37,874 bases of DNA. Origin: Acidimicrobiales bacterium. Lineage in GTDB: Bacteria; Actinomycetota; Acidimicrobiia; Acidimicrobiales; MedAcidi-G1. The notes beneath the pieces were generated by a model. It searched no databases, was not told where the DNA came from, and saw only the letters and a program-made list of their open reading frames with translations. Of this stretch, positions 12,634-34,739 are shown piece after piece. The DNA lies in contig JASLKB010000002.1 in NCBI GenBank assembly GCA_030747775.1, positions 1 to 37,874 on the forward strand. Direction: 5' to 3'. The translations under genes and the position numbers were made by a program. Each line of letters starts with the position of its first letter. Within the stretch, counting starts at the first letter, position 1.

Positions 12634-14256
12634 TCAGTCGATCCGTAGGTGGCCCATGGGTATACCGGTTCCGCTTGCCGTGCCGAAGACCAGCAGGTCG
12701 CCGCCGCCGAGGTCCAACTTGTCCTGATGGCCGAAGCCTGTGCCGACCGACGATGCCCATTCGTTGAACTGGAGCCCGTCGGTCGATCCCACAACACAGG
12801 AATCGTCTCCCAGGGTGAAGCTCAGTAGGTATCCACCCGATGGTCGTCGCTCTACCGAAGAGAGGCTGATACGGGCTGGGGTTCGGAGTGGTCCGCCGTC
12901 ACCGCGGTCCCGGTCGGCGTCGGAGAAGCCGCGGACACCTGACGATGACCCAACCCGTTCACCGGGGTCCACGGTCCAGGTGAGCATGTCGGTCGACGAG
13001 GCGCTGTGGATCCTCGACGTGAAGTCGTCTCGATCCTCGTTTGACGGTGAGGCACCGTTTGGCCCGAATCCCAGCTGATAGTCCACGTATAGACGCCAGC
13101 CGTCGTCGGTGGCCACGATGTCGTAGCCGGCGAAGCCCACCTCAAAGCCCCGGAAGCTGGTCAGGCCAACGTCTGCCAGGGTGAGCCGCGTCCCCGCTTC
13201 CTGGGTGAACTGGAGTCCGTCGTCGGACAGGAAGGAGAAGATCGTCGACGTGGTTCGGGCGAACATGCGGGTCCGGCCGTCCGGCAGCGGGAAGATACGC
13301 CTCCAGGCGAGGTCGTGACGTGGTTGCCCATCGTCACCCAACAATTGGTAGCCAGCCTCTGGTTCGAAGTTGAGGGTCCCGTATGGGGACTGGGCCGGTG
13401 TGGTTGAGCGCCAGGCCTTGTCGCCGTCGCCTTCGAAGAAGAGGCGGACGTGGCCATCTGGCAATAGCACCGAGGTGGGGTCGGCGATGAACTTGATCCC
13501 CTGGTCCATGCCGTCCACCAGTGGGGTGAGGCCGTCAGGTAGGCCGGGTGTGGCGTAGGTGATGGGCCAACCGAGGTCTACGTAGGCCATCGAAATCGGC
13601 TCGCCTAAGCAGGGCCAGGCGTCGTCGGAGGGAGGAGGGGAGTTATCCGGATCGGGCTCGCCCTCGTCCGCTCGTCCCCGATCGTCGTCTGGGTCGTTGC
13701 GGTCTTCGGGCTTGCCCTCGTCCAGGCTGAGGCATCGGCCCACGATCTCCATCTCCTGGTGGGAGGGCCAGACCTCGCTTCGGGCCAGGCTCATGACCCG
13801 GCTGCCGCCCAGCCTGGAGTCGAGGCACTGGGTGACTGGTCCGGGGGTATTCGATAGGACCGAGGGATCCCAGCCTTCCGGCCGTTTGGGCGATCCAGAT
13901 TCCTCCGGGTACTCCCCAGGGGGGTCGCCCTGATCCTCCTCGTACAGGGGTTCGTCCGGAATCGGGGCGTTCGTGGTGGTTGGGGCGTTCGTGGTGGTTG
14001 GGGCGTTCGTGGTGGTTGGGGCGTTCGTGGTGGTTGGAGCGGTCGTGGTGGTTGGTGCGGTCGGGGTGGTTGGTGCGGTCGTGGTGGTTGGTGCGGTCGT
14101 GGTGGTTGGTGCGGTCGTGGTGGTTGGTGCGGTCGTGGTGGTTGGAGCGGTCGTGGTCTCAGCCACCGGCGTGGTCGCCTCTACTGGGTCGGGAGAACCG
14201 GTGGAGGAACAGGCTGACAGGAGGAGGAGTATCGCCGCCACAACTCGAATCCGCAT
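12634..14256 (-). CDS. Surface lipoprotein with Thr/Pro repeat stalk and beta-propeller-like domain
   Basis: The 540-residue protein begins MRIRVVAAILLLLSAC, a signal peptide with lipobox LSAC, so it should be lipid-anchored at C16. A low-complexity stalk follows, built of about ten hexapeptides of type TTTTAP or TTTNAP encoded by an 18-bp tandem repeat. Next comes an acidic, Pro-rich linker. The C-terminal domain of about 330 residues has blade-like repeats such as DPTSVLLPDGHVRLFF and SFLSDDGLQFTQEAGTR, reminiscent of sialidase or GH43/GH32-type propellers. No catalytic residues can be assigned. The ATG at 14256 is chosen over 14280 because it gives the clean signal peptide and sits seven bases after TAGAGT. 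Confidence 0.85.
   Translation of the reverse strand: MRIRVVAAILLLLSACSSTGSPDPVEATTPVAETTTAPTTTTAPTTTTAPTTTTAPTTTTAPTTPTAPTTTTAPTTTNAPTTTNAPTTTNAPTTTNAPIPDEPLYEEDQGDPPGEYPEESGSPKRPEGWDPSVLSNTPGPVTQCLDSRLGGSRVMSLARSEVWPSHQEMEIVGRCLSLDEGKPEDRNDPDDDRGRADEGEPDPDNSPPPSDDAWPCLGEPISMAYVDLGWPITYATPGLPDGLTPLVDGMDQGIKFIADPTSVLLPDGHVRLFFEGDGDKAWRSTTPAQSPYGTLNFEPEAGYQLLGDDGQPRHDLAWRRIFPLPDGRTRMFARTTSTIFSFLSDDGLQFTQEAGTRLTLADVGLTSFRGFEVGFAGYDIVATDDGWRLYVDYQLGFGPNGASPSNEDRDDFTSRIHSASSTDMLTWTVDPGERVGSSSGVRGFSDADRDRGDGGPLRTPARISLSSVERRPSGGYLLSFTLGDDSCVVGSTDGLQFNEWASSVGTGFGHQDKLDLGGGDLLVFGTASGTGIPMGHLRID
13964..14143. repeat. 18-bp tandem repeat array, ten units, inside the lipoprotein gene
   Basis: Ten contiguous 18-base units run from 13964 to 14143, with a partial eleventh to about 14157. 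The plus-strand consensus is GG(G/T/A)GCG(T/G)TCGTGGTGGTT. Four identical units at 13964-14035 encode TTTNAP; the rest encode TTTTAP, apart from one TTPTAP at 14054-14071. The unit is a multiple of three, so changes in copy number keep the frame and alter only stalk length. Confidence 0.95.
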
Positions 14257-14263
14257 TGGTCGG

Positions 14264-14269
14264 ACTCTA
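14264..14269 (-). promoter_or_regulatory. Leaderless -10 element of the lipoprotein gene
   Basis: On the minus strand TAGAGT ends seven bases before the ATG at 14256. The same hexamer and spacing serve the divergent msrA gene. It overlaps the place where the msrA -35 region should lie. Confidence 0.6.
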
Positions 14270-14290
14270 GGTCGGGACACGGGTCGGCCC

Positions 14291-14975: not shown

Positions 14976-16718
14976 TCAGGCGTCGAGAACGGTGACCGTG
15001 CCAGCGGTGCCATCCACCTCAACCAGGGCGCCGTCGGGGATTCGACGGGTGGCACCGTCCACTGACACCACGCACGGGATGCCCAACTCGCGAGACACGA
15101 TTACCGCGTGGCTCATCAGGGCCCCCACGTCGACCACCACGGCCGCCGACGGCAGGAACAGTGGGGTCCACGCCGGGTCGGTAATGGGGGCCACCAGCAC
15201 CTCGCCCGGCTCCAGGTCCAACGCATCAGCGGGGTCCATCACGATGCGGGCCCGACCCCGGGCTACGCCCTGGCAGCCCGACGCCCCGGTGAGCACGTCT
15301 CCCGGACGGGCGACGGCGTCGACCGAACGTGCGGCCTGTTCGGCCTCCAGTTCCTCAATAGTGGGTACTTCGTCCTGGCTTGTGATGAAGAAACGGGGCT
15401 CGACTGCCGCGTACCGGTCGAACAACGCACCCCGTTCGGCCAGAACGTCAGCGAACGCCGATGGATTGACCAGGTAGGCCGGCAACTCATCCAGCGGATC
15501 CAGAAGAGCGACTCGCACTGGGTCTGGGTCACCGCCCTTCTCGGCGGCCCTCCGGACCAACTCTCGGTACACCTGCTTGGTGGGTGCGCCAATGCGTATG
15601 GCTCGGTCCCGGGTGGCCTCGCGGGCCTGGGCCCACCACCCGGTGGCGGCTAACGCCTTGTCGAAGTTCCGTCGATCCAGTCCCTTGACGTGGGGGCGGA
15701 CGACCGCTACGGCGGCCTCCCGCCTCGCCCCGTCGTCGGCCAGTCGGGCCGCGGGATCGAGGTCGTGGTCGGCCATACGCATGCGGTCGATGGCCACCAG
15801 AGCCAGTTCCGGGGTGTTTTCCCAGTTCCGGGACGAGAGCTCCCAGTCGTTGGGTCCCCGGTGGCCGTGATCGGAGGTGAACGCGGCGAAGTCGTCCAGG
15901 AACGTCGCCACTGCCTGGTCCCCGTCGCGCCGTGCGGCCAGTCGGTCCAATAGGCCGTCCATGCCGTCGTCGAAAGCGGTGGCCACCGATGGCCGCTCGC
16001 GGACTGTTCGAGCGATGGCGTATAGGTCCCGCGCGTACTCGGCCGACTTTACGTTCCCGGCCGACCCCAGGAGGTGGGTGACAAGGCCGGGTTGGCCAGC
16101 CGCCGCGCAGGCGTCGGCGAGGGCTCCGGCCACGATCGACGCCAGACCCGAGGAGAGCATGTGGTTATGGAAGGCCGGCCCGAAGGCCTCTGGAAAGGCG
16201 TGGAGGTAGGCCAGCAGGTCCTCGTCGGGGGCGTCCATTGGAGGGCAGGCGGCCCGGTGGGCGTCAGCCCGGGCAACGCTGTCGGCGACCATGGACGGCA
16301 TGGCTTTCGTGCCCAGCGCGCCCAGCACGGACCGCAGGATGCGCAGCGTAGACCCGAGGTTCCGGTCACCCTTCCGAGGCTCGTAGGGCGGAGGGTCGCC
16401 CTCGCCAAAGAAGGCTACGTCGATGGCCTCCGGTGACGAGCCGGGGGCCCGGACGCCGAGGATCCGCAGATACGAGAGGTTCAGGTAGGCGTAGCCTCCG
16501 TATAGACCGATGATCACCGGATCGTCATCGGTGAAGTCGCTCTTCACGGCTACTCCCAACTCGGCGTAGGCGTTCCGCCAAGCTCGCTCGGCGGCGATCA
16601 CTCCCAGCCGGTAGGACAGCGGGGTGAGGACCTCAGGGAACACCTCACCGACGTTGCCCCGGGTGTTGATGGGCCAACGGTCATCGACCGTGCCCTCGAT
16701 GATCCACGACGTTCCCAT
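14976..16718 (-). CDS. PEP-utilising-enzyme family protein lacking an ATP-binding domain
   Basis: The last 90 or so residues are the swivelling phosphohistidine domain of PEP synthase, PPDK and rifampicin phosphotransferase: GCQGVARGRARIV, PGEVLVAPITDPAWTPLF and GALMSHAVIVSRELGIPCVV with H537 as the phosphorylatable histidine. The preceding 450 residues are mostly helical (FTSDHGHRGPNDWELSS is notable), like the middle domain of rifampicin phosphotransferase. The N-terminal ATP-grasp domain of those enzymes is absent, and the 580-residue protein begins directly with this middle part. It may work with a separate ATP-binding partner, not seen in this window. ATG at 16718 has GGGGG upstream. It lies 83 bases after the acyl-CoA dehydrogenase gene on the same strand. 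Confidence 0.82.
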   Translation of the reverse strand: MGTSWIIEGTVDDRWPINTRGNVGEVFPEVLTPLSYRLGVIAAERAWRNAYAELGVAVKSDFTDDDPVIIGLYGGYAYLNLSYLRILGVRAPGSSPEAIDVAFFGEGDPPPYEPRKGDRNLGSTLRILRSVLGALGTKAMPSMVADSVARADAHRAACPPMDAPDEDLLAYLHAFPEAFGPAFHNHMLSSGLASIVAGALADACAAAGQPGLVTHLLGSAGNVKSAEYARDLYAIARTVRERPSVATAFDDGMDGLLDRLAARRDGDQAVATFLDDFAAFTSDHGHRGPNDWELSSRNWENTPELALVAIDRMRMADHDLDPAARLADDGARREAAVAVVRPHVKGLDRRNFDKALAATGWWAQAREATRDRAIRIGAPTKQVYRELVRRAAEKGGDPDPVRVALLDPLDELPAYLVNPSAFADVLAERGALFDRYAAVEPRFFITSQDEVPTIEELEAEQAARSVDAVARPGDVLTGASGCQGVARGRARIVMDPADALDLEPGEVLVAPITDPAWTPLFLPSAAVVVDVGALMSHAVIVSRELGIPCVVSVDGATRRIPDGALVEVDGTAGTVTVLDA

Positions 16719-16801: not shown

Positions 16802-17917
16802 TCAGTCCAAGACGGAGGCTGCGATCAGTTCCTCGAGGTGGTCGTCGTCGAACCAGTTGAGCTGCCAAGACTTGGCCCGACGGAAGTAGAGCTGGGCATC
16901 GCACTCCACGGTGAAGCCCATGCCTCCATGCACCTGGATAGCCACTCCGGTCACGTCCCGGCAGGTCTGGGTAGCGAACAGCTTGGCCATGGGGGCCAGC
17001 GTGGACACGTCACGGCCTTCGTCACGCGACCAGGCGGCCCGGTGCACCAGAACCCGTGCACCGTCGATGGCTGTAATGCCGTCGGCCAGGTAGTGGCTGA
17101 TCGACTGGAACGCCCCGATGGGCTTGTCGAACTGGTGGCGCTCCTTGGCGTACTGCGTGGTCAGGGCGTGGGTCGCCTCCGCTGCCCCCACGGCCTGGGC
17201 GGCCACCAGCACGATGGCGTCGGCCATGACCGTCGACCAGGTGGCCCAACCGGTGCCCGCGGGGCCGATGCGGTCCGTGGCCTCCACCCGGACGCGGTCG
17301 AGGTCCACTCGGTATTGGGTATCGCCGGCCACCGTCGGCTGGAGGGTCAGCGTCACGCCCTCGTCGGTGGGGTCGACCAGGAATAGGTCGACCGCCTCGG
17401 CGGCGCCGGTCCTAGCCAGGACGACCAGCCGGTCGGCCGACGAGGCGTAGGGCACGTGGCGCTTCGGTCCTGACAGGACGAACCCGTCTCCGTCGGCGAC
17501 GGCCGGCAGTCGCACGCCGGTCGGACCCGAGCCGTTGTCGGGCTCCAGCCAGGCCACCGACAGCACGGCCTCTCCCGAGGCGATGCGGGACAGCCAATCG
17601 GCCTGCTGGGCATCGGACCCGGCGGTGGCCAGCACGCCGCCAGCCACGACCGACGACGCCAGGTGGGGTGACGGTACGAGGCTGCGCCCCAGTTCTTCGT
17701 AGACCACCACGGCGTCCAGTAGGCCCATACCCGACCCCCCGAGGACCTCGGGGGTCATCAGGCCGGTCAGCCCCATGGCGGCCAGCCCCTGCCAGAAGGC
17801 TTCGTCGTAGCCCTTTGGGTCGTCCTCCAGTGCACGAACCGAGTCCGCGGCATCGGCGCAAAGGCCGCGGACGGCATCGCGGAGCATGTCCTGTTCCTCG
17901 GTGAAAGCCAGGTCCAC
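16802..17917 (-). CDS. Acyl-CoA dehydrogenase, second subunit type
   Basis: This 371-residue FAD-dependent acyl-CoA dehydrogenase homologue begins MDLAFTEEQDMLRDAVRGL. It has MGLTGLMTPEVLGGSGMGLLD, VLSVAWLEPDNGSG, YAKERHQFDKPIGAFQSISH and VAIQVHGGMGFTVECDAQLYFRR. The usual C-terminal GGT(S/N)E-QxNIIA segment is replaced by AKSWQLNWFDDDHLEE. This fits the subunits that form heterotetramers with a second dehydrogenase, as for ChsE1/ChsE2 in steroid side-chain degradation. The likely partner is the product of 20154-21347. GTG start at 17917 with AGGAG upstream; eight bases after the MaoC gene; last of the five core genes of this operon. Confidence 0.9.
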   Translation of the reverse strand: MDLAFTEEQDMLRDAVRGLCADAADSVRALEDDPKGYDEAFWQGLAAMGLTGLMTPEVLGGSGMGLLDAVVVYEELGRSLVPSPHLASSVVAGGVLATAGSDAQQADWLSRIASGEAVLSVAWLEPDNGSGPTGVRLPAVADGDGFVLSGPKRHVPYASSADRLVVLARTGAAEAVDLFLVDPTDEGVTLTLQPTVAGDTQYRVDLDRVRVEATDRIGPAGTGWATWSTVMADAIVLVAAQAVGAAEATHALTTQYAKERHQFDKPIGAFQSISHYLADGITAIDGARVLVHRAAWSRDEGRDVSTLAPMAKLFATQTCRDVTGVAIQVHGGMGFTVECDAQLYFRRAKSWQLNWFDDDHLEELIAASVLD

Positions 17918-17925
17918 GGGTTCTC

Positions 17926-18411
17926 CTATGGGCGCCAGGCGTCACCGCGGCGCGCCCAGGGGTTGTCGTCGTTGTCGAGGGGGAGGGCCACACGGGTAGC
18001 GCACGTGGTGGTGGCCACGTCTCCCACCATGAGGGCCACGTCCAAGTCGATCCAGCCGCAGCCGGTGTCGTCGACCTCGGTACCGGTCACCGTGGCCGTG
18101 AAGATCATGTGGTCGCCGGGGAACACGGGCGTGTTCATGCGGAAGGTCATGCGCCCCAGCCGACCGGTGGGTCCGGTCCAGTCGGTCACGTAGCGCTCGA
18201 ACCAGGCAGCCTGGTTCGGGGTGTTGAGGAAGATATCCCGCGTCCCATTGCGGTTGATGGCAAAGTCCCGGTCGTGGTGCATGGGGCGCCAGTCCCGTGA
18301 GGCGAGGGCACCAAGCACGACGGTGGTGGCCGTGACGTCGATGCCCAGCTCGGGCAGGACGTCGCCGACCGATACGTCTCCGTGGACCAGTCGCTCCATG
18401 GCCTCGCTCAC
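17926..18411 (-). CDS. MaoC-like enoyl-CoA hydratase subunit (catalytic hot-dog)
   Basis: This 161-residue single hot-dog protein is of the MaoC/R-specific hydratase type. ASRDWRPMHHDRDFA keeps the catalytic Asp and His pair (D40 and H45) of the family motif. RLGRMTFRMNTPVFPGDHMIFTATV is the second conserved part. It should hydrate an enoyl-CoA together with the non-identical hot-dog made by the next gene upstream, since stop and start overlap by four bases (GTGA). ChsH1 of mycobacteria is the closest functional parallel; that is inference from context. Confidence 0.88.
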   Translation of the reverse strand: MSEAMERLVHGDVSVGDVLPELGIDVTATTVVLGALASRDWRPMHHDRDFAINRNGTRDIFLNTPNQAAWFERYVTDWTGPTGRLGRMTFRMNTPVFPGDHMIFTATVTGTEVDDTGCGWIDLDVALMVGDVATTTCATRVALPLDNDDNPWARRGDAWRP

Positions 18412-18956
18412 GAGCCGGCCACCGTGGGTCGTCGGTAGCCAAAGGCGGTGTAGGACTCGACGCCAAGCAGGGCGTCGTTCTGGTTCAGGTACTCCACATC
18501 GATGGTCCAGAAGCGGCCGTGGCCTAGGCGGGTGGTCTTGGGCTCGCTGATCGATCTCAGGATCTGCCGGGACCTGACCTGGTCGCCGATCCGGACCGGG
18601 TCGTGGAAGGTGTTGGTATTCGACGAGATGATGGCCTCGGGGAGGTCCAGGTCGTCCTTGAGGTCGAAGTGGGCCTGGAGCGGCACGGCCGGTTCGGTTC
18701 GACCCGGCGACCAGTGGTGAGGGCGGAACCAGACCGAGAGCATGGTCGGCGGGGCGATGGGGCCGTCGGTCAGGGCATCTGCCACCTCGTCGTCCCAGAA
18801 CAGCGGGTTTCCGTTCTCGACAGATGCACAGGTCGTCCAGATGTAGCCGTGCTCGACGGGAAAGCCCCCCTCCTCCTCGTACTGGATGAGGCCGATGCGG
18901 TCAGTGACCGCCTCGGGGACGGGGGGAAGTTCCGGCGTGACGGCCTCGGCGTTCAT
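18408..18956 (-). CDS. FAS1-like dehydratase / MaoC N-terminal-type hot-dog subunit
   Basis: This 182-residue protein resembles the N-terminal hot-dog of MaoC-like dehydratases (PF13452 type), such as the hot-dog part of ChsH2. Conserved parts are CASVENGNPLFWDDE, GPIAPPTMLSVWFRPH and FHDPVRIGDQVRSRQILRSI. It lacks the DUF35 domain that ChsH2 carries at its C-terminus. It probably forms the heterodimeric hydratase with the MaoC-like partner and shapes a pocket for a bulky acyl-CoA. The ATG overlaps the TGA of the CaiB-type gene by four bases, and its own TGA overlaps the next GTG, so three genes are translationally coupled. Confidence 0.86.
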   Translation of the reverse strand: MNAEAVTPELPPVPEAVTDRIGLIQYEEEGGFPVEHGYIWTTCASVENGNPLFWDDEVADALTDGPIAPPTMLSVWFRPHHWSPGRTEPAVPLQAHFDLKDDLDLPEAIISSNTNTFHDPVRIGDQVRSRQILRSISEPKTTRLGHGRFWTIDVEYLNQNDALLGVESYTAFGYRRPTVAGS

Positions 18957-20122
18957 GCAATCGCCCCGTCGGCTCGCAGGTTGGCCAACTCCATTGCATC
19001 CAACCCGGCCCAGGTGAGGACTTCGTCGGTGGCCGGCTGGGCCATATCGTGCACCGGTAGGTCGGAGGCGTCCACCTGACCGGCCAGCGGGGCGGCCACC
19101 TGGGCGATGAGCCCGGCCGTCGGGTGGGTCACCTGGGTGAAGGCGCCCCGGGACTGGAACTGTTCGTCGGCCAATAGTTCAGGTACGTCCAGTACCGCGG
19201 TGACGCAGGTGTCGGCCGGCCCTAGGAGGTCCACCCACTCGTCACGGCCTCGGGCGGCGAAGGCTGCTGTGAAGTCGGCCCGCATGGCGTCCACGGCTTC
19301 GTCGTCGTACTGGTGGTCTGCCCACCGGTCACAGCCCAAGCTTCGGCAGAGGTTGGCGAAGAAGCGGGGTTCGATGGCACCCACGGCTAGCCAACCTCCG
19401 TCGGCCGCCTCGTAGAGGTCGTACCAGGCGTACCGGCCGGTGAGGAGGCCGTGGCGTGGCCCGGGCTCGGTACCGTCGGCCAGGTACTCGTCGACGGCTA
19501 GGGACATGAGCGATAGCACGCCGTCGGCGATGGATACGTCGAGGTGGGTGCCCTCGCCGGTGGTCGCCCGGGCAGTGAGGGCAGCGCAGATGGCGGCTAC
19601 CGCGTGCAGTCCGCCGCCGGCGCTGTCGGCCACTGTGGCACCGGGTAGAGCCGGCCCGCCGTCGGCGGTCCGGCCCGAGCAGTGGAGGTAGCCGCCGACG
19701 GCCAGGTAGTTGAGGTCGTGGCCCGCCCACTGGGCCCGGGGACCCGTCTGGCCAAAGCCGGTAGTCGAACACAGCACGATGCCCGGGTTGGCGGCCCGTA
19801 GCGCCTCGTAGCCGATGCCCAGGCGGTCCACGACACCCGGTCGGAAGCTCTCGATGACCACGTCGGCCTCGCTGGCCAGCCGCAGGAAAGCACTCCGACC
19901 ACCATCGGATTTGAGATCCAGGAGGACGCGACGCATCCCCCGGTGGGCGCTGTACGCATAGGTCGGTGGGGTGATCTGCACATCGGCGTCGCGAGGCACT
20001 GGACCCACCTTGATGACGTCGGCACCCCAGTCGGCCAGCCACCTGGCGGCACGCACCGCGGGCCCCACCGAGGCAAGGTCAAGCACGGTGATGCCGTCGA
20101 GGAGGGGGCGGTCGGTGGTCAT
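18953..20122 (-). CDS. CaiB/BaiF family III CoA-transferase or alpha-methylacyl-CoA racemase
   Basis: This 389-residue protein starts MTTDRPLLDGITVLDLASVGP. It has the family body: LADWGADVIKVG, RRVLLDLKS, ADVVIESFRPGVVDRLGIGYEAL, GFGQTGPRAQWAGHDLNYLAVGG and VADSAGGGLHA. H135 in GHDLNYLA and D166 in VADSAGG match the catalytic His and Asp of alpha-methylacyl-CoA racemase, which favours racemase over transferase. Such an enzyme would make the (2S)-methyl isomer needed by acyl-CoA dehydrogenases acting on branched or steroid side chains. ATG at 20122 is chosen; the frame to 20224 extends into the dehydrogenase gene. Confidence 0.88.
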   Translation of the reverse strand: MTTDRPLLDGITVLDLASVGPAVRAARWLADWGADVIKVGPVPRDADVQITPPTYAYSAHRGMRRVLLDLKSDGGRSAFLRLASEADVVIESFRPGVVDRLGIGYEALRAANPGIVLCSTTGFGQTGPRAQWAGHDLNYLAVGGYLHCSGRTADGGPALPGATVADSAGGGLHAVAAICAALTARATTGEGTHLDVSIADGVLSLMSLAVDEYLADGTEPGPRHGLLTGRYAWYDLYEAADGGWLAVGAIEPRFFANLCRSLGCDRWADHQYDDEAVDAMRADFTAAFAARGRDEWVDLLGPADTCVTAVLDVPELLADEQFQSRGAFTQVTHPTAGLIAQVAAPLAGQVDASDLPVHDMAQPATDEVLTWAGLDAMELANLRADGAIA

Positions 20123-20153
20123 GTCAGGGCCGGGTCGTTCTGGAGCATTCCGG

Positions 20154-21347
20154 TCAGAAGTTCTTGGGGAGGCCCAAGCCGCGGCGGGTGATGATGTTCT
20201 TCTGGACCTCGGAGGTGCCGCCACCGATGGTGTCCAGCACCGTGTAGCGGTAGGTCGACTCGGCTCGCCCGACCATCGGTGCCTCCTCGGTGCCCACCCT
20301 GAGTTGGGTGCCGGGGCCGCCCAGGTCCATTGAGGCGTCGGCTAGCACCTTGGAGAATTCGGTGGTGAATAGCTTGTACTCCGAGGCCTCGATTGTTGGG
20401 GGTGCACCACCGGTGGCCTCGGCCTTCACCGAGGCGTCCACGACCCTCAGGCCCATGCACCGGGCCACCTCGGCGGTGGTGGCGAGTCGGGCGATCCGGG
20501 ACCGGACTTTTGGGTCGTCCTTGAGTGGTTGGCCGTCGCGGGAGGCGGTGCGTACGTGCTCGACGAGCAGGTCGAGACGCTGCTTGACCGGCGAGAAGGT
20601 GAACATGGTGAACCGTTCGAGGTCCAGGGCCTGGGAGATGTATTGAAACCCGTGGTCCAACTGGCCGACCACGTACTCGTCAGGGACGAACACATCGTCG
20701 AAGAAGACGTCGTTGGTGCGCTCATCGCCCATCGTCCAGATGCCCTGCACGGTGATGCCGGGATGGTCCAGCGGTACCAGGAAAAGGGTGATGCCCGAGT
20801 GCTTGGGGGCGTCGGGGTTGGTTCGGGCGCCCACCCAGTACCACTCGGCGAAGTGGGCTGACGTAGTCCAGGTCTTCTGGCCGTTGAGGATCCAGCCGCC
20901 GCTGGTCTCGGTGGCCTTGAGCTTCATGGCCGCGGCGTCTGAGCCGGCCTCGGGTTCGCTGTAGCCGACCGCGAACTCCACCTCGTTGGCAAGGATCTTG
21001 GGCAGGAATTCCTCCTTGAGGAACTCTGAGCCGTGGGCGATCAGGGTCTTGCCGATGATGCCGACGCCCTTGCCGATCTGGGGGCCACCACGCGCGGCGA
21101 GGGCCTCGTTGAGGATGTACTCGTAGACGCCCTCGCCCTCCTGGCCGCCGTACTCTTTCGGCCAGGTGATGCCCAGCCAGCCCTGCTCGCCCATCTTCTT
21201 CATCAGCGCTCGGCGCTTGGGCGTGTCGACGATCTGGGCCATGTTCTCCCGGGTGGGGTCGAATACCTCGGGATCGTCATTGGCGTCGAGGAACGCCTCG
21301 ACCTCGGCCCGGAAGGCCTCTTGCTCGGGAGTGAAGTCGAAGTTCAT
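20154..21347 (-). CDS. Acyl-CoA dehydrogenase, FadE29/IGGGTSE type
   Basis: This 397-residue dehydrogenase is the first gene of the minus-strand operon. It begins MNFDFTPEQEAFRAEVEAFL and has GWLGITWPKEYGG, VGYSEPEAGSDAAAM, LNGQKTWTTSAHFAEWYW (FAD-contacting Thr/Ser region), DERTNDVFFDDVFVP and the end DTIGGGTSEVQKNIITRRGLG. The IGGGTSE ending is typical of steroid-linked and branched-chain FadE subunits. It should pair with the shorter subunit from 16802-17917. No strong ribosome-binding site precedes the ATG at 21347. A 19-bp palindrome lies 25 bases upstream, shared with the divergent pair. Confidence 0.92.
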   Translation of the reverse strand: MNFDFTPEQEAFRAEVEAFLDANDDPEVFDPTRENMAQIVDTPKRRALMKKMGEQGWLGITWPKEYGGQEGEGVYEYILNEALAARGGPQIGKGVGIIGKTLIAHGSEFLKEEFLPKILANEVEFAVGYSEPEAGSDAAAMKLKATETSGGWILNGQKTWTTSAHFAEWYWVGARTNPDAPKHSGITLFLVPLDHPGITVQGIWTMGDERTNDVFFDDVFVPDEYVVGQLDHGFQYISQALDLERFTMFTFSPVKQRLDLLVEHVRTASRDGQPLKDDPKVRSRIARLATTAEVARCMGLRVVDASVKAEATGGAPPTIEASEYKLFTTEFSKVLADASMDLGGPGTQLRVGTEEAPMVGRAESTYRYTVLDTIGGGTSEVQKNIITRRGLGLPKNF

Positions 21348-21371
21348 GGGCGTCTGCTCTGGAGGAAGGTA

Positions 21372-21390
21372 ATCTGACGGTCCGTCAGAT
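21372..21390. promoter_or_regulatory. 19-bp perfect palindrome between divergent lipid-catabolism genes
   Basis: Nine-base arms (half-site ATCTGACGG) are exact reverse complements around a central T at 21381. The site lies 25 bases from the acyl-CoA dehydrogenase start and 26 bases from the opposite start. TGACGGTCCGTCA-type cores are typical TetR-family operators in actinobacterial fatty-acid and steroid gene sets. No matching regulator gene is present nearby. Confidence 0.85.
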
Positions 21391-21415
21391 AAGAACGGTA
21401 TCGGAGGCGCAAGCC

Positions 21416-22822
21416 ATGAACACGACCAGGGGAATCCTCGCCTATGGCGCCCACGTCCCCTACTGGCGACTCGACCGGTCCGAGATCGCCTCGGTCATGG
21501 GCGGGACAGCTGACGGTGGCCACCGCGCCGTGGCCTCCTTCGACGAGGACACCACGACCATGGGAGTGGCCGCCGCCCGTCGGGCGTTGGCCACGACATC
21601 GGGACCGGCTCCCGACGCCCTCTGGTTCTCCACCGTGGCGCCGGCGTACCTCGACAAGACCAACGCCACGGTGGTGCACGCCGCTCTCCGACTCGACACC
21701 TCGATCCCGGCCCTGGACTTCGGTGGCGCACAGCGGTCGGCCGTGGGCGCCCTTCGGGCGGGCCTCACCGGCCCGGGCCGAACCCTGGTGGTGGCCTCTG
21801 ACATCCGGATCGGCCTGCCTACCGGACCCGAGGACGGCGGGGGCGGTGACGCCGCGGCAGCAATCCTCACCGGATCGTCTGACGACGGCCCACTGCTGGC
21901 CGAGTACCTGGGCGGCGCCACGGCTACCGGTGAGTTCACCGACCGCTGGCGTACACCGGGCAGCGCCCACTCCCGCACGTGGGAGGACCGCTTCGGCGAG
22001 CAGGCCTACGTGCCCCTGGTCAGACGGGCATGGGCCGACGCCCTGGCCGCCACTGGCTTGACCGCCGCCGACGTCACGGTCGCCGTGGTTACCGGGTTGC
22101 ACGACCGGGCTACCAAGAAGGCCGCTGCTGGCCTCGGGGTGGCCGTGACCGACGACCGGTCGGCCACCGTAGGCAACGCCGGGGCCGCCCATCCGGCCCT
22201 GCTGCTGGCCGACGTGCTGGACGGCGCCGAGGCCGGCGCCGTGGTGGCTCTCGTGGTGCTGGCCGACGGCTGTGAGGTGCTGTTGTTCCGGACCACCGAC
22301 GCCCTTCCGGCCGGCCGGCCGGCCCCCTCGGTGGCCGCTCAGTTGGAGGACCGGGCCGACGTGGCCTACGCCCGCTACCTGTCGTGGCGGGGCCTGCTGG
22401 AGGTCCAGCCCCCCAACCGGCCCGAGCCGAACAGACCGTCGTCGTCGGCTGCTCTGCGCCGCACCGACTGGAAGCACGGCTTCGTCGGGGCCACTGACCG
22501 CATGACCGGCATTACCCACCTTCCGCCTAGCCGGGTGGGCATCGCCGGTGGACAGGTGGACGACATGGACCAGGCACCGATGGCCGACGCCATCGGCACC
22601 ATTGCCACCTTCACCGTGGACCATCTCGTCTATTCCCAGAGTCCTCCTGTGGTCTTCGCGGTAGTCGACTTCGACGGGGGAGGCCGCATGCCCATCGAAC
22701 TGACCGACGTCGACACGGCCATGGTGGCCATTGGTGACCGGGTGGAGATGACCTTCCGCCGAATGTTCACCGCCGACGGTCTGCACAACTACTTCTGGAA
22801 GGCCCGCCCCACAGGGGGCTGA
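21416..22822 (+). CDS. HMG-CoA-synthase-like domain fused to a DUF35-type OB-fold
   Basis: This 468-residue protein has two parts. Residues 1 to about 310 follow archaeal HMG-CoA synthase and ketoacyl-synthase III folds (GILAYGAHVPYWRLDRSEI, FDEDTTTMGVAAARRAL, VTGLHDRATKKAAAGLG, VGNAGAAHPALLLADVL). Residues about 375-465 are an OB-fold of DUF35 type (PPVVFAVVDFDGGGRMPIELTDVD, GDRVEMTFRRMF, HNYFWKARP). The condensing cysteine expected near residue 103 is glycine (LDFGGAQRSAV), and the whole protein has one cysteine, elsewhere. The zinc-ribbon cysteines that normally precede a DUF35 OB-fold are also missing. It may be a scaffold or CoA-ester carrier for the thiolase encoded 31 bases downstream. 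GGAGG lies upstream of the ATG. Confidence 0.85.
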   Translation: MNTTRGILAYGAHVPYWRLDRSEIASVMGGTADGGHRAVASFDEDTTTMGVAAARRALATTSGPAPDALWFSTVAPAYLDKTNATVVHAALRLDTSIPALDFGGAQRSAVGALRAGLTGPGRTLVVASDIRIGLPTGPEDGGGGDAAAAILTGSSDDGPLLAEYLGGATATGEFTDRWRTPGSAHSRTWEDRFGEQAYVPLVRRAWADALAATGLTAADVTVAVVTGLHDRATKKAAAGLGVAVTDDRSATVGNAGAAHPALLLADVLDGAEAGAVVALVVLADGCEVLLFRTTDALPAGRPAPSVAAQLEDRADVAYARYLSWRGLLEVQPPNRPEPNRPSSSAALRRTDWKHGFVGATDRMTGITHLPPSRVGIAGGQVDDMDQAPMADAIGTIATFTVDHLVYSQSPPVVFAVVDFDGGGRMPIELTDVDTAMVAIGDRVEMTFRRMFTADGLHNYFWKARPTGG

Positions 22823-22853
22823 CCGGCCGCCGAGAGTCGAGGAGAGCACGAAC

Positions 22854-24050
22854 ATGGCATCGCACGGGATCCTGGATCGGGTGGCCATTGTCGGCATGGG
22901 GTGCACCCCATTTCGCGAGCACTGGGACAAGTCGCTGGACGATCTGCTCATCGACGCCCATGGACTGGCGCTGGACTCGGCGGGCATCGGCAAGGACGAT
23001 GTGGACGCCTACTGGTACGGCACGTCGCAGTCGTCGGCTTCGGGCATCTCCCTGGCCACCCCCCTCCGCCTGGACAACCGTCCCGTCACTCGGGTGGAGA
23101 ACTATTGCGTCACTGGGTCCGAGGCCCTGCGTCAGGCTTGTTACGCCGTGGCCTCCGGTGCCTACGACGTTGCTGTGGCTATCGGTGGCGAGAAGGTCAA
23201 GGACAGTGGCTACCAGGGTCTCAACGCCTTTCCCATCCCCACCGATGGGACCAACCGCACCCTGACCGCGGCGGCCATGTTCAGCCTGATGTTGCCGGCC
23301 TATGCCGAGCGGTACGGCGTGGATGAGGAGCGACTGCGGTACGTGGTGGCGAAGATCGCCGAGAAGAACCACTTCAACGGGGCGCGCAATGACCTGGCCC
23401 AGTTCCGACGCGAGATGTCGGCTGAGGCCATCTGCGACATGGCTGCCGTGGCCGGACGGCTGTCGGTCTTTGACTGTGCCGGCGTGGCCGACGGTGCCGC
23501 GGCGGCCGTCGTGGTTGCCGCTGACCGGGCTACCGACTACACCGACGCTCCGCTCTACGTGAAGGCTCTGTCGCTGGTGGCCGGCGATGGTTCAGGCCTC
23601 GTGGACCCGGCATTCGACTTCACCACGCTGCCCGAATGCGCCGCCGCTGCCACCGATGCCTACACCCAGGCTGGGATCACCGACCCTCGGACCGAGCTGG
23701 CCATGGCCGAGGTACATGACTGCTTCACCCCGACCGAGCTTGTCCTCATGGAGGACCTCGGATTTAGCGGTCGGGGCGAGGGCTGGAGCGACGTTCTGGA
23801 AGGACGGTTTGCCATCGATGGGGACATGCCTGTCAACACCGACGGTGGGCTAAAGAGCTTCGGCCATCCCGTGGGCGCCAGCGGTCTGCGCATGCACTAC
23901 GAGGCATGGCTCCAGCTTCGCGGCGAGGCGCCGGCCGAGCGCAGCGTGGCCACGTTGGACACCCGTAGCCGTGCCCTGGTGCACAACCTCGGTGGCTATC
24001 CGGGTGAGATGGTGTCCTTCGTCGGTATCTGGGGTACCGAGAAGGGTTAG
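22854..24050 (+). CDS. SCP2-type thiolase / Ltp2-like lipid-transfer thiolase
   Basis: This 398-residue protein is of the thiolase superfamily, SCP2-thiolase branch. The N-terminal half has VAIVGMGCTPFREHWDKSL and VENYCVTGSEALRQAC with C85 at the nucleophile region. The C-terminal half has EVHDCFTPTELVLMEDLGF (H288, D289, C290) and SFGHPVGASGLRM with H338. In steroid side-chain degradation a relative, Ltp2, works with a DUF35 domain as a retro-aldolase. Here the neighbour carries the OB-fold, so aldol cleavage or thiolysis are both possible. GAGGAG precedes the ATG. Its stop overlaps the stop of the convergent DinB gene by four bases. Confidence 0.9.
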   Translation: MASHGILDRVAIVGMGCTPFREHWDKSLDDLLIDAHGLALDSAGIGKDDVDAYWYGTSQSSASGISLATPLRLDNRPVTRVENYCVTGSEALRQACYAVASGAYDVAVAIGGEKVKDSGYQGLNAFPIPTDGTNRTLTAAAMFSLMLPAYAERYGVDEERLRYVVAKIAEKNHFNGARNDLAQFRREMSAEAICDMAAVAGRLSVFDCAGVADGAAAAVVVAADRATDYTDAPLYVKALSLVAGDGSGLVDPAFDFTTLPECAAAATDAYTQAGITDPRTELAMAEVHDCFTPTELVLMEDLGFSGRGEGWSDVLEGRFAIDGDMPVNTDGGLKSFGHPVGASGLRMHYEAWLQLRGEAPAERSVATLDTRSRALVHNLGGYPGEMVSFVGIWGTEKG

Positions 24051-24769
24051 GGCGATAGGGCCAGCCAGGCGTCGAGGACTGCCTCATCGCCGAATACCTC
24101 GAGGGTGGGCTGACGGCGGCCCCACACCAGCAGGGCGAGGTCTGAGGCACTACCCCTCGCCGCGGCGTCCCCCTTGGCGTGCTCGTGGCTGACTACCAGA
24201 CGGTCGTCCTGGGCTGACAGGAGCCATTCACCGTCACCGTCGGTGCGGTGCAGGTGCAGTGTCGACGTTGGGAAGTCGGTGACCGGGCCACGCATGTGGT
24301 GGCGCCACGCCACATCCAAGATCTCGGCGACCCCGTCGTGGGCCAGTTCGGCGTCGATCGGCTGGGGTTCACCAACGGCGTTCTCCGCATCCCAACGGTG
24401 GACAGCATTCTCGTGGGCCATGCGACGGACCACCCACGCCACCTTCCGGCCCTCTGGTTCACACCAGTTCCAGCACGGAGCCTCTGGATCGGAACTGGCT
24501 AGCAGGGCAACCAGCTTGCTGAGTCGATCGGCGGCCGTCGAATCGTCATCTCCGGGGCGGGTCAATTTGTCCGACGAGGCGGCCTCCACCTGAGTTGCCA
24601 TGAACAACCAGACACCGGCCATGTGGGAAACCAGACCATCAGCGTCCCAGTCCGGGCAGTGTTCAATGCGGGCGGTGGGGTTCCGGCCGGCAACGGCTAG
24701 CAGGGCGTGTCCTTCGCGTTCGACAGCGGTCAGCAGGGTGTCAAGGTCCATGGTCGGAGTCTCGCTCAC
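24047..24769 (-). CDS. Mycothiol-dependent DinB-like (maleylpyruvate isomerase family) protein, second copy
   Basis: This 240-residue relative of the protein at 11779-12597 keeps the full metal triad. With the GTG start at 24769 the ligands are H49 (GLVSHMAGVW), E120 and H124 (RRMAHENAVHRWDAE), matching the H-E-H pattern of mycothiol-dependent maleylpyruvate isomerase. The C-terminal part (STLHLHRTDGDGEWLL and GSASDLALLVWGR) is an SCP2-like domain. The substrate is unknown. ATG at 24751 is an alternative start. It lies nine bases after the PAC2 gene on the same strand and is convergent with the thiolase. Confidence 0.88.
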   Translation of the reverse strand: MSETPTMDLDTLLTAVEREGHALLAVAGRNPTARIEHCPDWDADGLVSHMAGVWLFMATQVEAASSDKLTRPGDDDSTAADRLSKLVALLASSDPEAPCWNWCEPEGRKVAWVVRRMAHENAVHRWDAENAVGEPQPIDAELAHDGVAEILDVAWRHHMRGPVTDFPTSTLHLHRTDGDGEWLLSAQDDRLVVSHEHAKGDAAARGSASDLALLVWGRRQPTLEVFGDEAVLDAWLALSP

Positions 24770-24778
24770 CGAGCTGAC

Positions 24779-25708
24779 CTATTCCTTGTTGGGTTCCGCA
24801 CCGGGATCGGCGGGGTCTTCGTTGGGGGCCTCAGCGCCCGGTGGGAGGCGCTGGTCCTGATCGCGCAGGAAGGCTTCCAACTCTGCGGCCAGATCGTCGC
24901 CGCGGGGCATCAGGTCCTCGATCTGGTCTAGCTGGGATTCGAGGCGGCGCACGTGGGCGGTCACCTCGGCATCGCCGGCCACCGCCTCGTCCACCCGCGA
25001 CTGCCACTCGCTGGCTGGGCCATCCAGATCGGCGAACTCCGTGTCCACCCCACTGACCTGCTCCAAGCGTCGCAGGAGGGACCGGGTTGCCTTCGGGTTG
25101 GGGGAGTCGGGCAGGTAGTAAGGCACTGACACCCGCAACGAGATCACCGGCATGCCGGCTCGGTCCAGCGTGTCGGTCAGCACCCCAACCACACCAGTCG
25201 GCCCTTGGTAGGACGGCCGGTCCAGGCCGAGTCGGTCGGCCAGGTCGCGGTTGGCACTGCTGGCCGTCACGGCGGGTGGCCGGGTATGGGGGGACATCCC
25301 GCTCATCGATCCGAGGGTTACCACCAGTTGCGACCCAGTGCGGGTCGCCGCGGTCCGTAGGGCCTCGGCGAAGGTTCGCCAGCGAAGGTGGGGTTCCACG
25401 CCGGTCACCACCACTAGGTCGCGTTGGCCGTCGGGGGTGCGGATGGCCAGTACCCGGTTGGATGGCCAGTGGACTTGCCGTTCTCCGCCGCTGTTGAATT
25501 TGACTATCGGCCGTTCCTGAGTGAAGTCGAAGAAGGTCTCTGGGTCTACGTCTCCCACTTCGGTGCTGTCAAGGCGCTCTGCTAGCCATTCCACGGCCGA
25601 GGTAGCCGATCCCGCCGCGTCGAATAGCCCCCTGAAGGCCACGACGAGGATTGGTCGGTCCAGTTGTTCGGCGAGCAGTGCGTCGGCCGTCCAGCGCAGT
25701 TCATCCAC
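24779..25708 (-). CDS. PAC2 family protein (proteasome-assembly-chaperone-like)
   Basis: This 309-residue protein matches actinobacterial PAC2 proteins: RPILVVAFRGLFDAAGSAT, FDFTQERPIVKF, RDLVVVTGVEPHLRW, VVTLGSMSGMSPHTRPPAVTASS, GPTGVVGVLTDTLDRAGMPVISL and VPYYLPDSPNPKATRSLL. The C-terminus has a likely coiled coil (about residues 235-285) and an acidic, proline-rich tail. The eukaryotic namesake helps assemble proteasomes, but the bacterial function is unproven. GTG start at 25708. It diverges from the MFS gene, with 79 bases between starts, and probably forms an operon with the DinB gene. Confidence 0.88.
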   Translation of the reverse strand: MDELRWTADALLAEQLDRPILVVAFRGLFDAAGSATSAVEWLAERLDSTEVGDVDPETFFDFTQERPIVKFNSGGERQVHWPSNRVLAIRTPDGQRDLVVVTGVEPHLRWRTFAEALRTAATRTGSQLVVTLGSMSGMSPHTRPPAVTASSANRDLADRLGLDRPSYQGPTGVVGVLTDTLDRAGMPVISLRVSVPYYLPDSPNPKATRSLLRRLEQVSGVDTEFADLDGPASEWQSRVDEAVAGDAEVTAHVRRLESQLDQIEDLMPRGDDLAAELEAFLRDQDQRLPPGAEAPNEDPADPGAEPNKE

Positions 25709-25787
25709 GGCGACAGGTTCGCAGATGGGACGCTGGAACCGGGGATCCAGTGAGTTCGCTCCCTGGAGGTCGTGGGAGTATCCGGAG

Positions 25788-27014
25788 ATGAAGCCGGCCG
25801 ACGACCTCCACCCTCCTTACCGGTGGCTACTTCTCAGCGGGGTTTGCAGCGTTTACTTCACTTTTGGGTTATTGGTTATGTCGATTCCCCCGCTAGTCAG
25901 CGAGATCAGAGCCGACCTCGGACTGAGCCGCAGCGCCATGGGTCTAGCTATTGGCGCTTGGCCACTTATCTACATTCTGAGTTCCCCCGCCTGCGGACAC
26001 CTGCTGGATCGCCTCGGCGTACGTCGAGGCATCGCGCTGGGGTCCCTTGTAATGGCGGCCAGTGGGTTCTTGCGTGCCTTTGCTGGAGGGTTGGGATCGT
26101 TCTGGTTAGCTATCGCGCTCTTTGGCCTCGGTGGACCACTCGTATCGGCTGGTGCTCCGAAAGTCGTTGGCCTCTGGTTTGTTGAAGAGCGAGAGCGACG
26201 TCTGGCTATTGGGGTCTACAGCGCTGTGCCGGCTATCGGGGGTATGGCTGCTTTAGTCCTGTCCAACTCAGTTCTTATGCCTCTCACTCGGTCTTGGCGA
26301 ACGACAATTGTGATCGAGACGGTGATGGTTGTATTGGCCCTAGTGGTTTGGTTGGTGATCTCAGGCCGCGGGCCGGAGCCACCACCGAGCGATCGGCCGG
26401 CCACCACGGAATCCAACAGTCCACGGTTTCTGCTGGCTAGTTCGGAGTTCCGGATCATTCTCCTACTAGGGGTCGGCGCATTTTTTATCTTCCATGGCCT
26501 AGCAGGTTGGATGCCTGAGGCCTTGCGGGAACACAGTGGGTTCTCGTCTATGGCAGCGGCTAACTGGGTTGCCCTGGGAGCATTCGTAGGAGTGGTTTGT
26601 GTGTTGTTTCTGCCGAGCCGGACAGAGCGGCAGAAACTTGCGACAACCATGGCCGTTGTTTTGGCACTACTCGCCGTGGCGGTCCTAGCCGTGGTGTGGT
26701 TACCCACCTGGTTGGTTCCCATCCCGGTGGCTATTGCCGGGGGGCGATCTGTCCTACTGCCCCTCATCCATGTAGCCCTGCTGGAATCAGAGCCCGTTGG
26801 GCCGAACAACACCGGGCTCGCCTCCGGTCTGTGGTTTGGGACAGCTGAGATAGGGGGGGTCGCCGGGCCGCTTGTGGTGGGCTGGGTAGCCGACACTTCC
26901 GCTGGTTTCGCGGGGGCCTTTGTCGTTATAGCTGCGGTGTCTGTAGCCATGCTCCTTCCGATTACCCGGCTCCACCGGTTCACCAGAGGAGGGGTAGGTT
27001 CAGTTACGCCCTGA
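25788..27014 (+). CDS. MFS transporter (CynX/NimT-like)
   Basis: This 408-residue protein has about twelve membrane segments. LLLSGVCSVYFTFGLLVMSIP is the first, and the signature loop is HLLDRLGVRRGIALGSL (the D-R-x-G-x-R/K type between helices 2 and 3). A Pro-rich cytoplasmic loop (GPEPPPSDRPATTES) separates the two six-helix halves. The late segment NNTGLASGLWFGTAEIGGVAGP fits CynX/NimT-like porters; the cargo is unknown. The ATG at 25788 has GGGAG upstream; the frame is open further upstream, but that part lies across the PAC2 promoter. The base composition is visibly more A/T-rich than in the neighbours. The sulfatase gene starts 40 bases later, so a sulfate-ester cargo is possible. Confidence 0.87.
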   Translation: MKPADDLHPPYRWLLLSGVCSVYFTFGLLVMSIPPLVSEIRADLGLSRSAMGLAIGAWPLIYILSSPACGHLLDRLGVRRGIALGSLVMAASGFLRAFAGGLGSFWLAIALFGLGGPLVSAGAPKVVGLWFVEERERRLAIGVYSAVPAIGGMAALVLSNSVLMPLTRSWRTTIVIETVMVVLALVVWLVISGRGPEPPPSDRPATTESNSPRFLLASSEFRIILLLGVGAFFIFHGLAGWMPEALREHSGFSSMAAANWVALGAFVGVVCVLFLPSRTERQKLATTMAVVLALLAVAVLAVVWLPTWLVPIPVAIAGGRSVLLPLIHVALLESEPVGPNNTGLASGLWFGTAEIGGVAGPLVVGWVADTSAGFAGAFVVIAAVSVAMLLPITRLHRFTRGGVGSVTP

Positions 27015-27054
27015 CCGCAGGTCGGGACTGGCGGCGGCCGCACCCAGGAGCACG

Positions 27055-29385: not shown

Positions 29386-29415
29386 GCCCGGCGTCGCCGG
29401 GAGGAGGGTCGGCCG

Positions 29416-30063
29416 ATGGCTATTGATCTCCGGGATCTGGTGGAACCGACGCGCACCGCCTTGTGCGTCGTTGAGTGTCAGAACGGCGTAGTCGGTGAGG
29501 CATCCAGCATGCCTGCGTTAGCTGACGCCGTGGCAGCGGCTGACCTGCTGCCCCGGTTGGGGGACCTGGCGGGAGCCGCACGTTCAGCCGGAGTACGGGT
29601 CGTGCACTGCACGTTCAACGTCCACCCCGACCTGTGGGGCGGCAACCGCAACTCCCGCCTGTTTGTCGCTGGCCGACGGTCGGCAGTCCAGCAGTACGCG
29701 AACACCGATGCCACCGAACCGGCAGACGAGATCGGCTTCGTGGAGGGTGCCGACGTCGTCGTGCCCCGCTTTCACGGACTGTCGCCGGTGGCCGGGACCG
29801 AGCTGGCACCCATGCTGCGCAACGAGGGTGTGACGACGGTGGTGGTTGCCGGGGTGAGCCTCAACGTGGCTATCCCCAACACGGTGTTCGACCTGGTCAA
29901 CGGGGGTTTCCAGGTAGTGGTCCCTACTGACGGGTCCGTATCCACCGTCGCCGGGTACGGCGAGCAGGTGCTGGAACACACGTTGGCCTATGTGGCCACG
30001 TTGGCCGACGTAGCCACCCTCGTCGAGGCGTGGTCCCAGATGAGTCGGGAAGTGACCGGCTAG
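29416..30063 (+). CDS. Isochorismatase-fold protein lacking the canonical catalytic triad
   Basis: This 215-residue protein has the cysteine-hydrolase (isochorismatase) fold: TALCVVECQNGVVG, VRVVHCTFNVHPD, ADVVVPRFHGLSP, VVVAGVSLNVAIPNTVFDLVNGGFQVVVPTD. The family triad is Asp, Lys, Cys. Here E20 replaces Asp, R118 replaces Lys, and A152 stands where the nucleophilic cysteine belongs (GVSLNVAI instead of GVSTNVCV). It is therefore a divergent enzyme or a pseudoenzyme; similar sequences seem to occur in other actinobacteria. GGAGG lies before the ATG, 30 bases after the sulfatase. Its TAG stop overlaps the stop of the convergent SulP gene. Confidence 0.87.
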   Translation: MAIDLRDLVEPTRTALCVVECQNGVVGEASSMPALADAVAAADLLPRLGDLAGAARSAGVRVVHCTFNVHPDLWGGNRNSRLFVAGRRSAVQQYANTDATEPADEIGFVEGADVVVPRFHGLSPVAGTELAPMLRNEGVTTVVVAGVSLNVAIPNTVFDLVNGGFQVVVPTDGSVSTVAGYGEQVLEHTLAYVATLADVATLVEAWSQMSREVTG

Positions 30064-31346: not shown

Positions 31347-31353
31347 GACCCCG

Positions 31354-31359
31354 ACCCTA
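31354..31359 (-). promoter_or_regulatory. Leaderless -10 element of the SulP gene
   Basis: On the minus strand TAGGGT ends seven bases before the ATG at 31346. It shares the two bases 31358-31359, inside a central CTAG, with the opposite-facing hexamer of the Nudix gene. Confidence 0.6.
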
Positions 31360-31363
31360 GGAT
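31358..31363 (+). promoter_or_regulatory. Leaderless -10 element of the Nudix gene
   Basis: TAGGAT ends six bases before the GTG at 31370. It overlaps the SulP hexamer on the other strand, so the two predicted start sites are only 23 bases apart. Confidence 0.58.
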
Positions 31364-31369
31364 CGTCGG

Positions 31370-34667: not shown

Positions 34668-34673
34668 GGCTGG

Positions 34674-34679
34674 ACCCTA
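34674..34679 (-). promoter_or_regulatory. Leaderless -10 element of the P450 gene
   Basis: On the minus strand TAGGGT ends six bases before the ATG at 34667. No Shine-Dalgarno sequence lies in between. The divergent dehydrogenase gene has no matching hexamer. Confidence 0.58.
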
Positions 34680-34739
34680 CGGTCGGGTCAGAGGTGGCCC
34701 GAAGTCGGGACGCCCGGCGACGAGGCATCGGGGGTAGGG

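Follow-up and report, generated by a model that had tools for sequence, protein, structure and literature searches.

A predicted catalytically inert HMGCS-fold/DUF35 fusion and its partner thiolase beside a Chs-like acyl-CoA degradation block in Acidimicrobiia

What reaction sequence is encoded where genes resembling the Chs subunits of steroid side-chain degradation stand next to a fusion of an HMG-CoA synthase (HMGCS) fold with a DUF35 domain? The question is raised by positions 16802-24050 of a 37,874-nucleotide stretch of DNA from an Acidimicrobiales bacterium (GenBank assembly GCA_030747775.1, contig JASLKB010000002.1, positions 1 to 37,874), hereafter called the window. A map of open reading frames (ORFs) together with Pfam, NCBIfam and PDB searches placed seven genes there: a minus-strand block of five, coding for two acyl-CoA dehydrogenases (ACADA and ACADB), two MaoC-type hydratase subunits (MaoC1 and MaoC2) and a racemase, and, beyond a divergent intergenic region of 68 bp (21348-21415), the plus-strand genes for the fusion and a thiolase. 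A first-pass annotation, made from the sequence alone, had described this as a single operon, a rearranged igr-like module with an Ltp2-like thiolase that might serve sterol, bile-acid or branched isoprenoid side chains. Its gene set and positions hold; the genes, however, form two divergent units that are linked in many genomes yet separable. We favor a different reading, with a probability of roughly 0.6, in which most of the enzymes of one beta-oxidation cycle are encoded here, acting on a bulky acyl-CoA that is probably 2-methyl-branched, with the fusion as a catalytically dead scaffold for the final thiolysis.

The fusion lacks the aligned HMGCS residues

The fusion gene (21416-22822, plus strand) is one open frame of 468 amino acids (aa). 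The HMGCS fold covers about aa 1-330, and an OB-fold part (22592-22759, plus strand), matched by Pfam PF01796 (OB_ChsH2_C) at 46.7 bits, sits at the C-terminus, as the first-pass annotation had proposed. With a structure model of the protein (predicted local distance difference test, pLDDT, 92.2; predicted template modelling score, pTM, 0.93) a fold search was carried out, which returned 6esq_I of the archaeal AACT/HMGCS complex first (Z 43.5), then 9skh_A (41.8) and 5m3k_A (40.4) of PhlABC, and 9vbo_A of MucABC (38.4). Ordinary HMG-CoA synthases trailed with Z scores of 36.8 and below. When fusion sequences were aligned with 6esq_I and PhlA, the catalytic Cys, His and Glu of HMGCS were absent from their columns in all 77 rows, of which 54 came from the class and 23 from a phylum-wide set (L068 was dropped from the latter). 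The class-level rows derive from 70 loci; with identical rows and rows below 85% of the length removed, 54 remained for the fusion and 53 for the thiolase. In the window the Cys column falls at Gln106 (MAFFT) or Gly104 (hand alignment), neither of them a Cys, and on these alignments the loss of the Cys appears to be the firm part of the residue loss. An active HMG-CoA synthase was rejected because none of the three residues stands in its aligned column in any row. The fusion is hence predicted to be a catalytically dead scaffold. Three NCBIfam HMGCS models match it, all under their cut-offs, and these are its best matches among curated families, yet the catalytic Cys is absent; if our reading is true, annotation should present proteins of this kind as scaffold subunits of thiolase complexes. 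The zinc-ribbon region before the OB-fold contains no Cys in the window fusion, and the CxxC is kept in part of the family. One fusion row, from locus L206, is without DUF35.

Passages of PMC6392133 state that in PhlABC only PhlC does chemistry, PhlA being without the HMGCS Cys and Glu, and that archaeal HMGCS is active, with Cys114 and Glu82; excerpts of PMC12955522 give Cys88 as the confirmed nucleophile of PhlC. PhlABC (PhlACB) of Pseudomonas and Chromobacterium (5M3K, 9SKH) is a multicomponent acyltransferase, a hetero-oligomer of (A2C2)2B4 type that carries out C-acyl transfer onto phenols without CoA. The locus studied here resembles it in combining an HMGCS-fold subunit lacking catalytic Cys and Glu, a DUF35/OB-fold and a thiolase-fold subunit with Cys. 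However, PhlABC consists of three separate polypeptides, whereas HMGCS fold and DUF35 are a single polypeptide here; DUF35 of PhlABC has a Cys4 zinc ribbon, the Cys residues of which are lost in the window fusion; and the partner genes here are beta-oxidation genes. The archaeal complex (6esq) provides both the best fold match of the fusion and the second-best PDB sequence match of the thiolase, but its HMGCS is active and its DUF35 is a separate protein. The fusion is therefore better seen as a relative of these DUF35-bridged HMGCS-fold/thiolase complexes than as a product of igr rearrangement. In passages of Krishna et al. (2010, PMC2954200), DUF35 fused to thiolase-superfamily domains is described and active PhlC is contrasted with inactive PhlA. 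HMGCS-DUF35 fusions as such are not claimed to be new, and the parts of the locus are of known kinds (PhlABC/AACT-HMGCS-DUF35, Chs-type pairs, AMACR). Neither their combination nor a dead-HMGCS/DUF35 fusion that partners a thiolase beside a Chs-like operon was found described in open-licence literature, a scope that makes this weak evidence of novelty.

The partner thiolase carries a nucleophilic-type Cys

The thiolase (22854-24050, plus strand) matches NF004810 with 537 bits (cut-off 403) and has Cys85 together with HDCF and GHP motifs. Its PDB matches include 7yvy (185 bits), 6esq_A of the archaeal complex (173 bits), BbsB (97 bits, 9e-27), PhlC (78 bits) and Ltp2 6ok1 (74 bits). All 53 class-level partner thiolases possess the nucleophilic-type Cys, HDCF and GHP; among the phylum-wide partners, the L206 thiolase has EIYNSF in place of HDCF and keeps Cys and GHP. 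According to sections of PMC12329534, Ltp2 uses the Tyr in YDHF plus a second Tyr, and Sal uses YDCY, with Gly replacing the nucleophilic Cys. The catalytic Tyr motif is absent from the window thiolase, and a 33-row tree set all 17 thiolases of the module apart from Ltp2, 4u4e and 9myr by a 100/100 branch. An aldolase of the Ltp2/Sal type was rejected on motifs and tree, so the protein does not appear to be Ltp2-like, contrary to its initial label.

A closer Ltp2 relative is present elsewhere in the window's own genome, on contig C266 (L165 9088-10664). It matches 6ok1 at 6.4e-57, has YDGF and no Cys, and forms a long branch in the tree. Next to this gene stands one for a stand-alone DUF35 protein whose CxxC zinc ribbon is complete, and P450-, acyl-CoA-ligase- and enoyl-CoA-hydratase-like genes were recognized nearby by eye. 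In Mycolicibacterium, the steroid aldolase Atf1 works with a DUF35 protein that likewise stands alone, as reported in parts of PMC10398937. On contig C238 of the same genome (L168 2801-4458), DUF35 is paired with a thiolase-fold protein with the motif VYDLSS and SCP2-thiolase as best PDB match; a dehydrogenase near this pair resembles ACADB by eye. On contig C213 (L166 2566-3600), a single frame has two tandem DUF35 OB-fold matches, and by eye no thiolase adjoins it.

The block encodes Chs-like dehydrogenase and hydratase pairs

The two dissimilar acyl-CoA dehydrogenases noted on first pass were borne out. ACADB (20154-21347, minus strand) has 4x28_A (1.3e-58) and 6wy8_B (2e-53) as its best PDB matches. 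ACADA (16802-17917, minus strand), recognized by Pfam ACAD domains, has 4x28_D and 6wy8_A as its fourth and fifth matches, with 6fah, 4l1f and 5ol2 scoring slightly above 4x28_D. The two proteins thus match the two different chains of 4x28 and 6wy8, dehydrogenases that we take to be steroid-acting heteromers. Residues were counted in orthologues of the block proteins, with the window row included and identical rows and rows below 75% of the length excluded. Glu244 of ACADB is present in 44 of 44 rows and aligns with the Glu of LNHERV in 4x28_A, presumably the catalytic residue. In ACADA, the Glu254-type position is A or G (37/37 rows) and the position of MCAD Glu376, occupied in 36 rows, is Trp in 35 of them; the two positions were placed by hand from pairwise alignments and with reference to MCAD. 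ACADA is predicted to be a catalytically inert partner, and the pair probably forms a two-subunit dehydrogenase with one catalytic subunit, as in the igr-type module.

Each of the two dissimilar hot-dog subunits has a different chain of the ChsH1-ChsH2 complex as its best PDB match. MaoC1 (17926-18411, minus strand) matches the short chain (4.7e-18), and its Asp40 and His45 are kept in 41 of 41 rows. MaoC2 (18408-18956, minus strand) matched just two PDB sequences, both the long chain (1.7e-6), and the fold search agrees, giving Z scores of 16.7 and 16.6 to that chain and 12.1 to the next entry; Phe or Tyr occupies the His position in all 42 rows. The labels ChsH1 and ChsH2 are opposite in 4w78 and 4wnb, and we take the short chain with Asp/His to be ChsH1. 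This agrees with the parts of PMC11321319 that describe ChsH2 as inert, with Tyr at the His position, and ChsH1 as active. The locus thus combines a ChsH1-like catalytic with a ChsH2-like inert MaoC subunit. As first proposed, the hydratase partner carries no DUF35: MaoC2 has 182 aa and a single Pfam match, FAS1_DH_region.

Between MaoC2 and ACADB lies a gene of the CaiB/BaiF family (18953-20122, minus strand). Its ORF is open to 20224 (GTG), with a probable ATG start at 20122. The best PDB matches are M. tuberculosis MCR and its variants (3.6e-57 to 3.9e-57). His137, Asp168 and Glu253 of the 391-aa query (135, 166 and 251 from the ATG), which we take to be the MCR-like catalytic residues, are kept in 40/41, 40/41 and 41/41 rows, respectively. 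The protein is probably an alpha-methylacyl-CoA racemase, in line with the first-pass call. A role as CoA-transferase is unlikely, given 197 bits to MCR against at most 148 for matches not named racemases.

The fusion and the block are linked in many genomes

At E<=1e-10, the fusion query matches 98 of 296 genomes of the class, in four of which only the DUF35 part is covered (G176, G189, G268 and G274), and 47 of 296 sampled Actinomycetota genomes from several families, at least one of them (G417) without the DUF35 part. The thiolase adjoins the fusion in every fetched locus (40/40, 80/80 and 20/20, with 78 of the 80 over 300 bits), although these sets overlap partly, the same place having come from two collections, and are not independent counts. 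The set of 80 was drawn from at least 509 relatives. At least three strong block genes accompany the fusion in 23 of the 80 loci, a lower bound as contigs end. A MaoC2 orthologue (E<=1e-40) is present in 40 of the 296 class genomes, all but two of which also match the fusion (38/40; Fisher p 8e-19, and 1e-19 when the four DUF35-only genomes are set aside; p ignores relatedness). The two genes are no more than about 10 kb apart on a single contig in 22 of these 38 genomes. Outside the class, the order of the five-gene block is kept in five of five loci, and four of the five genomes match the fusion, on other contigs. A chance neighborhood is ruled out by the conservation of gene order, which is kept in many genomes, and by co-occurrence.

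A second CaiB protein, CaiB2, adjoins the fusion and/or the block in many loci. PDB matches assign it to family III CoA-transferases. We surveyed 134 loci, duplicates included and 14 of them picked for having the block, of which 127 had matches above the thresholds: 22 with block, fusion and CaiB2, 33 with fusion and CaiB2, 4 with block and CaiB2, 17 with block and fusion only, 2 with the block only and 49 with the fusion only. In the window's genome CaiB2 is kept but unlinked (C237, 61% identity).

The fusion and thiolase could also be an independent C-acyltransferase or condensing complex, of the PhlABC or archaeal AACT type, that merely neighbors a beta-oxidation operon. PhlABC-type complexes offer the closest folds and residue losses, no block stands beside the pair in 57 of the 80 loci (some of them cut by contig ends), and outside the class block and fusion are on different contigs. 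However, the near-constant presence of the fusion in genomes with MaoC2 in the class (38/40) and in block genomes outside it (4/5), and the repeated close, divergent linkage, often with CaiB2 between the units, count against mere neighborhood, and we consider independence unlikely.

Some records deserve mention in their own right. L116 (Yinghuangia soli), alone among the 80 records in being titled as a named strain and not as a metagenome-assembled genome or bin, carries a fusion/thiolase pair with 61% identity to the query, together with CaiB2, possibly by transfer. L128 and L161, titled 'Bifidobacterium breve' metagenome-assembled genomes, carry an Acidimicrobiia-like locus, and L132 ('Acidobacteria bacterium') carries the whole module; these record names are probably wrong.

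A beta-oxidation cycle is proposed

Computation shows the gene content and its conservation, the catalytic residues kept or lost, the folds of two proteins, the clade of the thiolase, and linkage with co-occurrence; physical complexes, the direction of the reactions, the class of substrate and the unlinked dehydrogenase step are inferred. In the proposed cycle, CaiB2 would supply substrate activation and the racemase would set the configuration at C2 by epimerisation. ACADB/ACADA would introduce the alpha,beta double bond, with the catalytic Glu in ACADB only. MaoC1/MaoC2 would hydrate it, with the catalytic Asp/His in MaoC1 only and MaoC2 forming an enlarged substrate pocket. An unlinked dehydrogenase would produce the 3-keto-acyl-CoA, which the thiolase would cleave with CoA through Cys85. 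The fusion would do no chemistry; it would be a dead paralogue bridging and shaping the thiolase complex, as PhlA and PhlB do for PhlC. Dehydrogenation, hydration and thiolysis would each join an active and an inert paralogue. If true, the pairing of active with inert paralogues, known for the dehydrogenase and hydratase steps, would apply to cleavage of a carbon-carbon bond as well, and there would be a testable route by which Acidimicrobiia of sea and soil degrade bulky branched acids. As a tentative extension, the dead paralogues might build a pocket that accommodates a bulky acid, either polycyclic or a highly branched isoprenoid, such as one derived from hopanoids or triterpenoids, with the fused dead-HMGCS/DUF35 thiolase replacing a steroid-type retro-aldol step; we hold this possible but doubtful. 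One relative, L152, is titled 'Candidatus Hopanoidivorans', which is a lead only; no paper on 'Hopanoidivorans' was found in open-licence literature.

Several observations weigh against the proposed cycle. A His lies three residues downstream of the aligned catalytic His in 47 of the 77 fusion rows, the window included (there residue 229, at about 22100-22102) and with 41 of the 54 rows from the class among them, and the His loss is for this reason less clear than the Cys loss. Within four columns of the respective catalytic column, a Glu is found in four rows (L017, L029, L050 and L063) and a Cys in three (L029, L054 and L056). The five-gene block is missing beside most fusion/thiolase pairs, and of the class genomes that match the fusion, 60 of 98 are without a MaoC2 match at E<=1e-40. 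Conversely, the fusion is not matched in the MaoC2 genomes G010 and G139, nor in G502 from outside the class; the link between block and fusion rests on genome context. No 3-hydroxyacyl-CoA or short-chain dehydrogenase family was detected among the 30 window proteins scanned, which counts against the cycle because a thiolase route needs such an enzyme and an aldolase would not. Reading the locus flanks, by Pfam or by eye, likewise revealed no 3-hydroxyacyl-CoA dehydrogenase tied to the module. Finally, a steroid-like substrate may be used without the 9,10-seco ring pathway.

This last point bears on the original proposal, an igr-like module for steroid or bile-acid side chains in which DUF35 of the fusion activates an Ltp2-like enzyme for a final retro-aldol reaction. 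Part of it is supported: the locus shares with ChsE1-ChsE2/ChsH1-ChsH2/Ltp2 the active/inert dehydrogenase pair and the active/inert MaoC pair, AMACR is present, and no 3-hydroxyacyl-CoA dehydrogenase gene was found in the cluster, as an aldolase would allow. In contrast to the igr module, however, AMACR lies inside the operon, DUF35 is found on the HMGCS fold instead of on the ChsH2-like protein, and the place of the Ltp2-type aldolase is taken by a thiolase with nucleophilic Cys and HDCF rather than YDHF or YDCY, across the 100/100 branch from Ltp2, while the much closer Ltp2 relative of the same genome stands beside a DUF35 of its own. We also searched for HsaA, a single marker, for the 9,10-seco steroid pathway only. 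Among the 296 class genomes it scored above cut-off only in G285, a genome lacking both fusion and block, so that neither the 98 fusion-matching genomes nor the 40 block genomes contain a positive; none of 14 control genomes matched, leaving G285 as the sole positive. Weaker HsaA-like matches (E<=1e-60) occurred in eight fusion-matching genomes, three of them with the block, and the window's genome (G000, 92% complete) had no match at this threshold. On this marker the host appears to be without the 9,10-seco ring pathway, and a complete steroid pathway in these hosts is therefore unlikely; other bulky branched acids remain open as substrates. The original proposal as a whole has little probability; neither a retro-aldol end nor a steroid or bile-acid degrader is supported.

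The bbs operon encodes a CoA-transferase, a dehydrogenase, a hydratase and a DUF35-partnered thiolase, and we know of no HMGCS fold, heteromeric hydratase of this kind or racemase in that system. A pathway of that type, acting on aromatic or 2-substituted dicarboxylic acids and ending in a thiolase like BbsAB, the benzoylsuccinyl-CoA thiolase, has in its favor the match of CaiB2 to a benzylsuccinate CoA-transferase subunit (9e-45) and that of the thiolase to BbsB, but is the least probable of the alternatives, as BbsB is much further from the window thiolase than 7yvy or 6esq_A and the HMGCS-fold partner, hydratase pair and racemase have no known counterpart there.

Neighboring genes

Downstream of the thiolase, positions 24047-31526 encode an MDMPI-like protein, PAC2, an MFS transporter, a type I sulfatase, an isochorismatase-like protein and a sulfate permease. 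The first four have relatives in 11-14 of the 80 related loci, also in loci without the block (L098, L099 and L102). The sulfatase beside the module could suggest sulfated substrates. A zinc alcohol dehydrogenase is encoded at 34419-35714, 10 kb from the cluster. On the other side, 14976-16718 encodes a PEP-utiliser mobile domain protein that is similar to RedH/PigC-like and PEP-synthase-like proteins in their C-terminal part but shorter than these families, and the probable lipoprotein encoded at 12634-14280 contains a long Thr/Pro repeat tract (APTTTT units) near its N-terminus.

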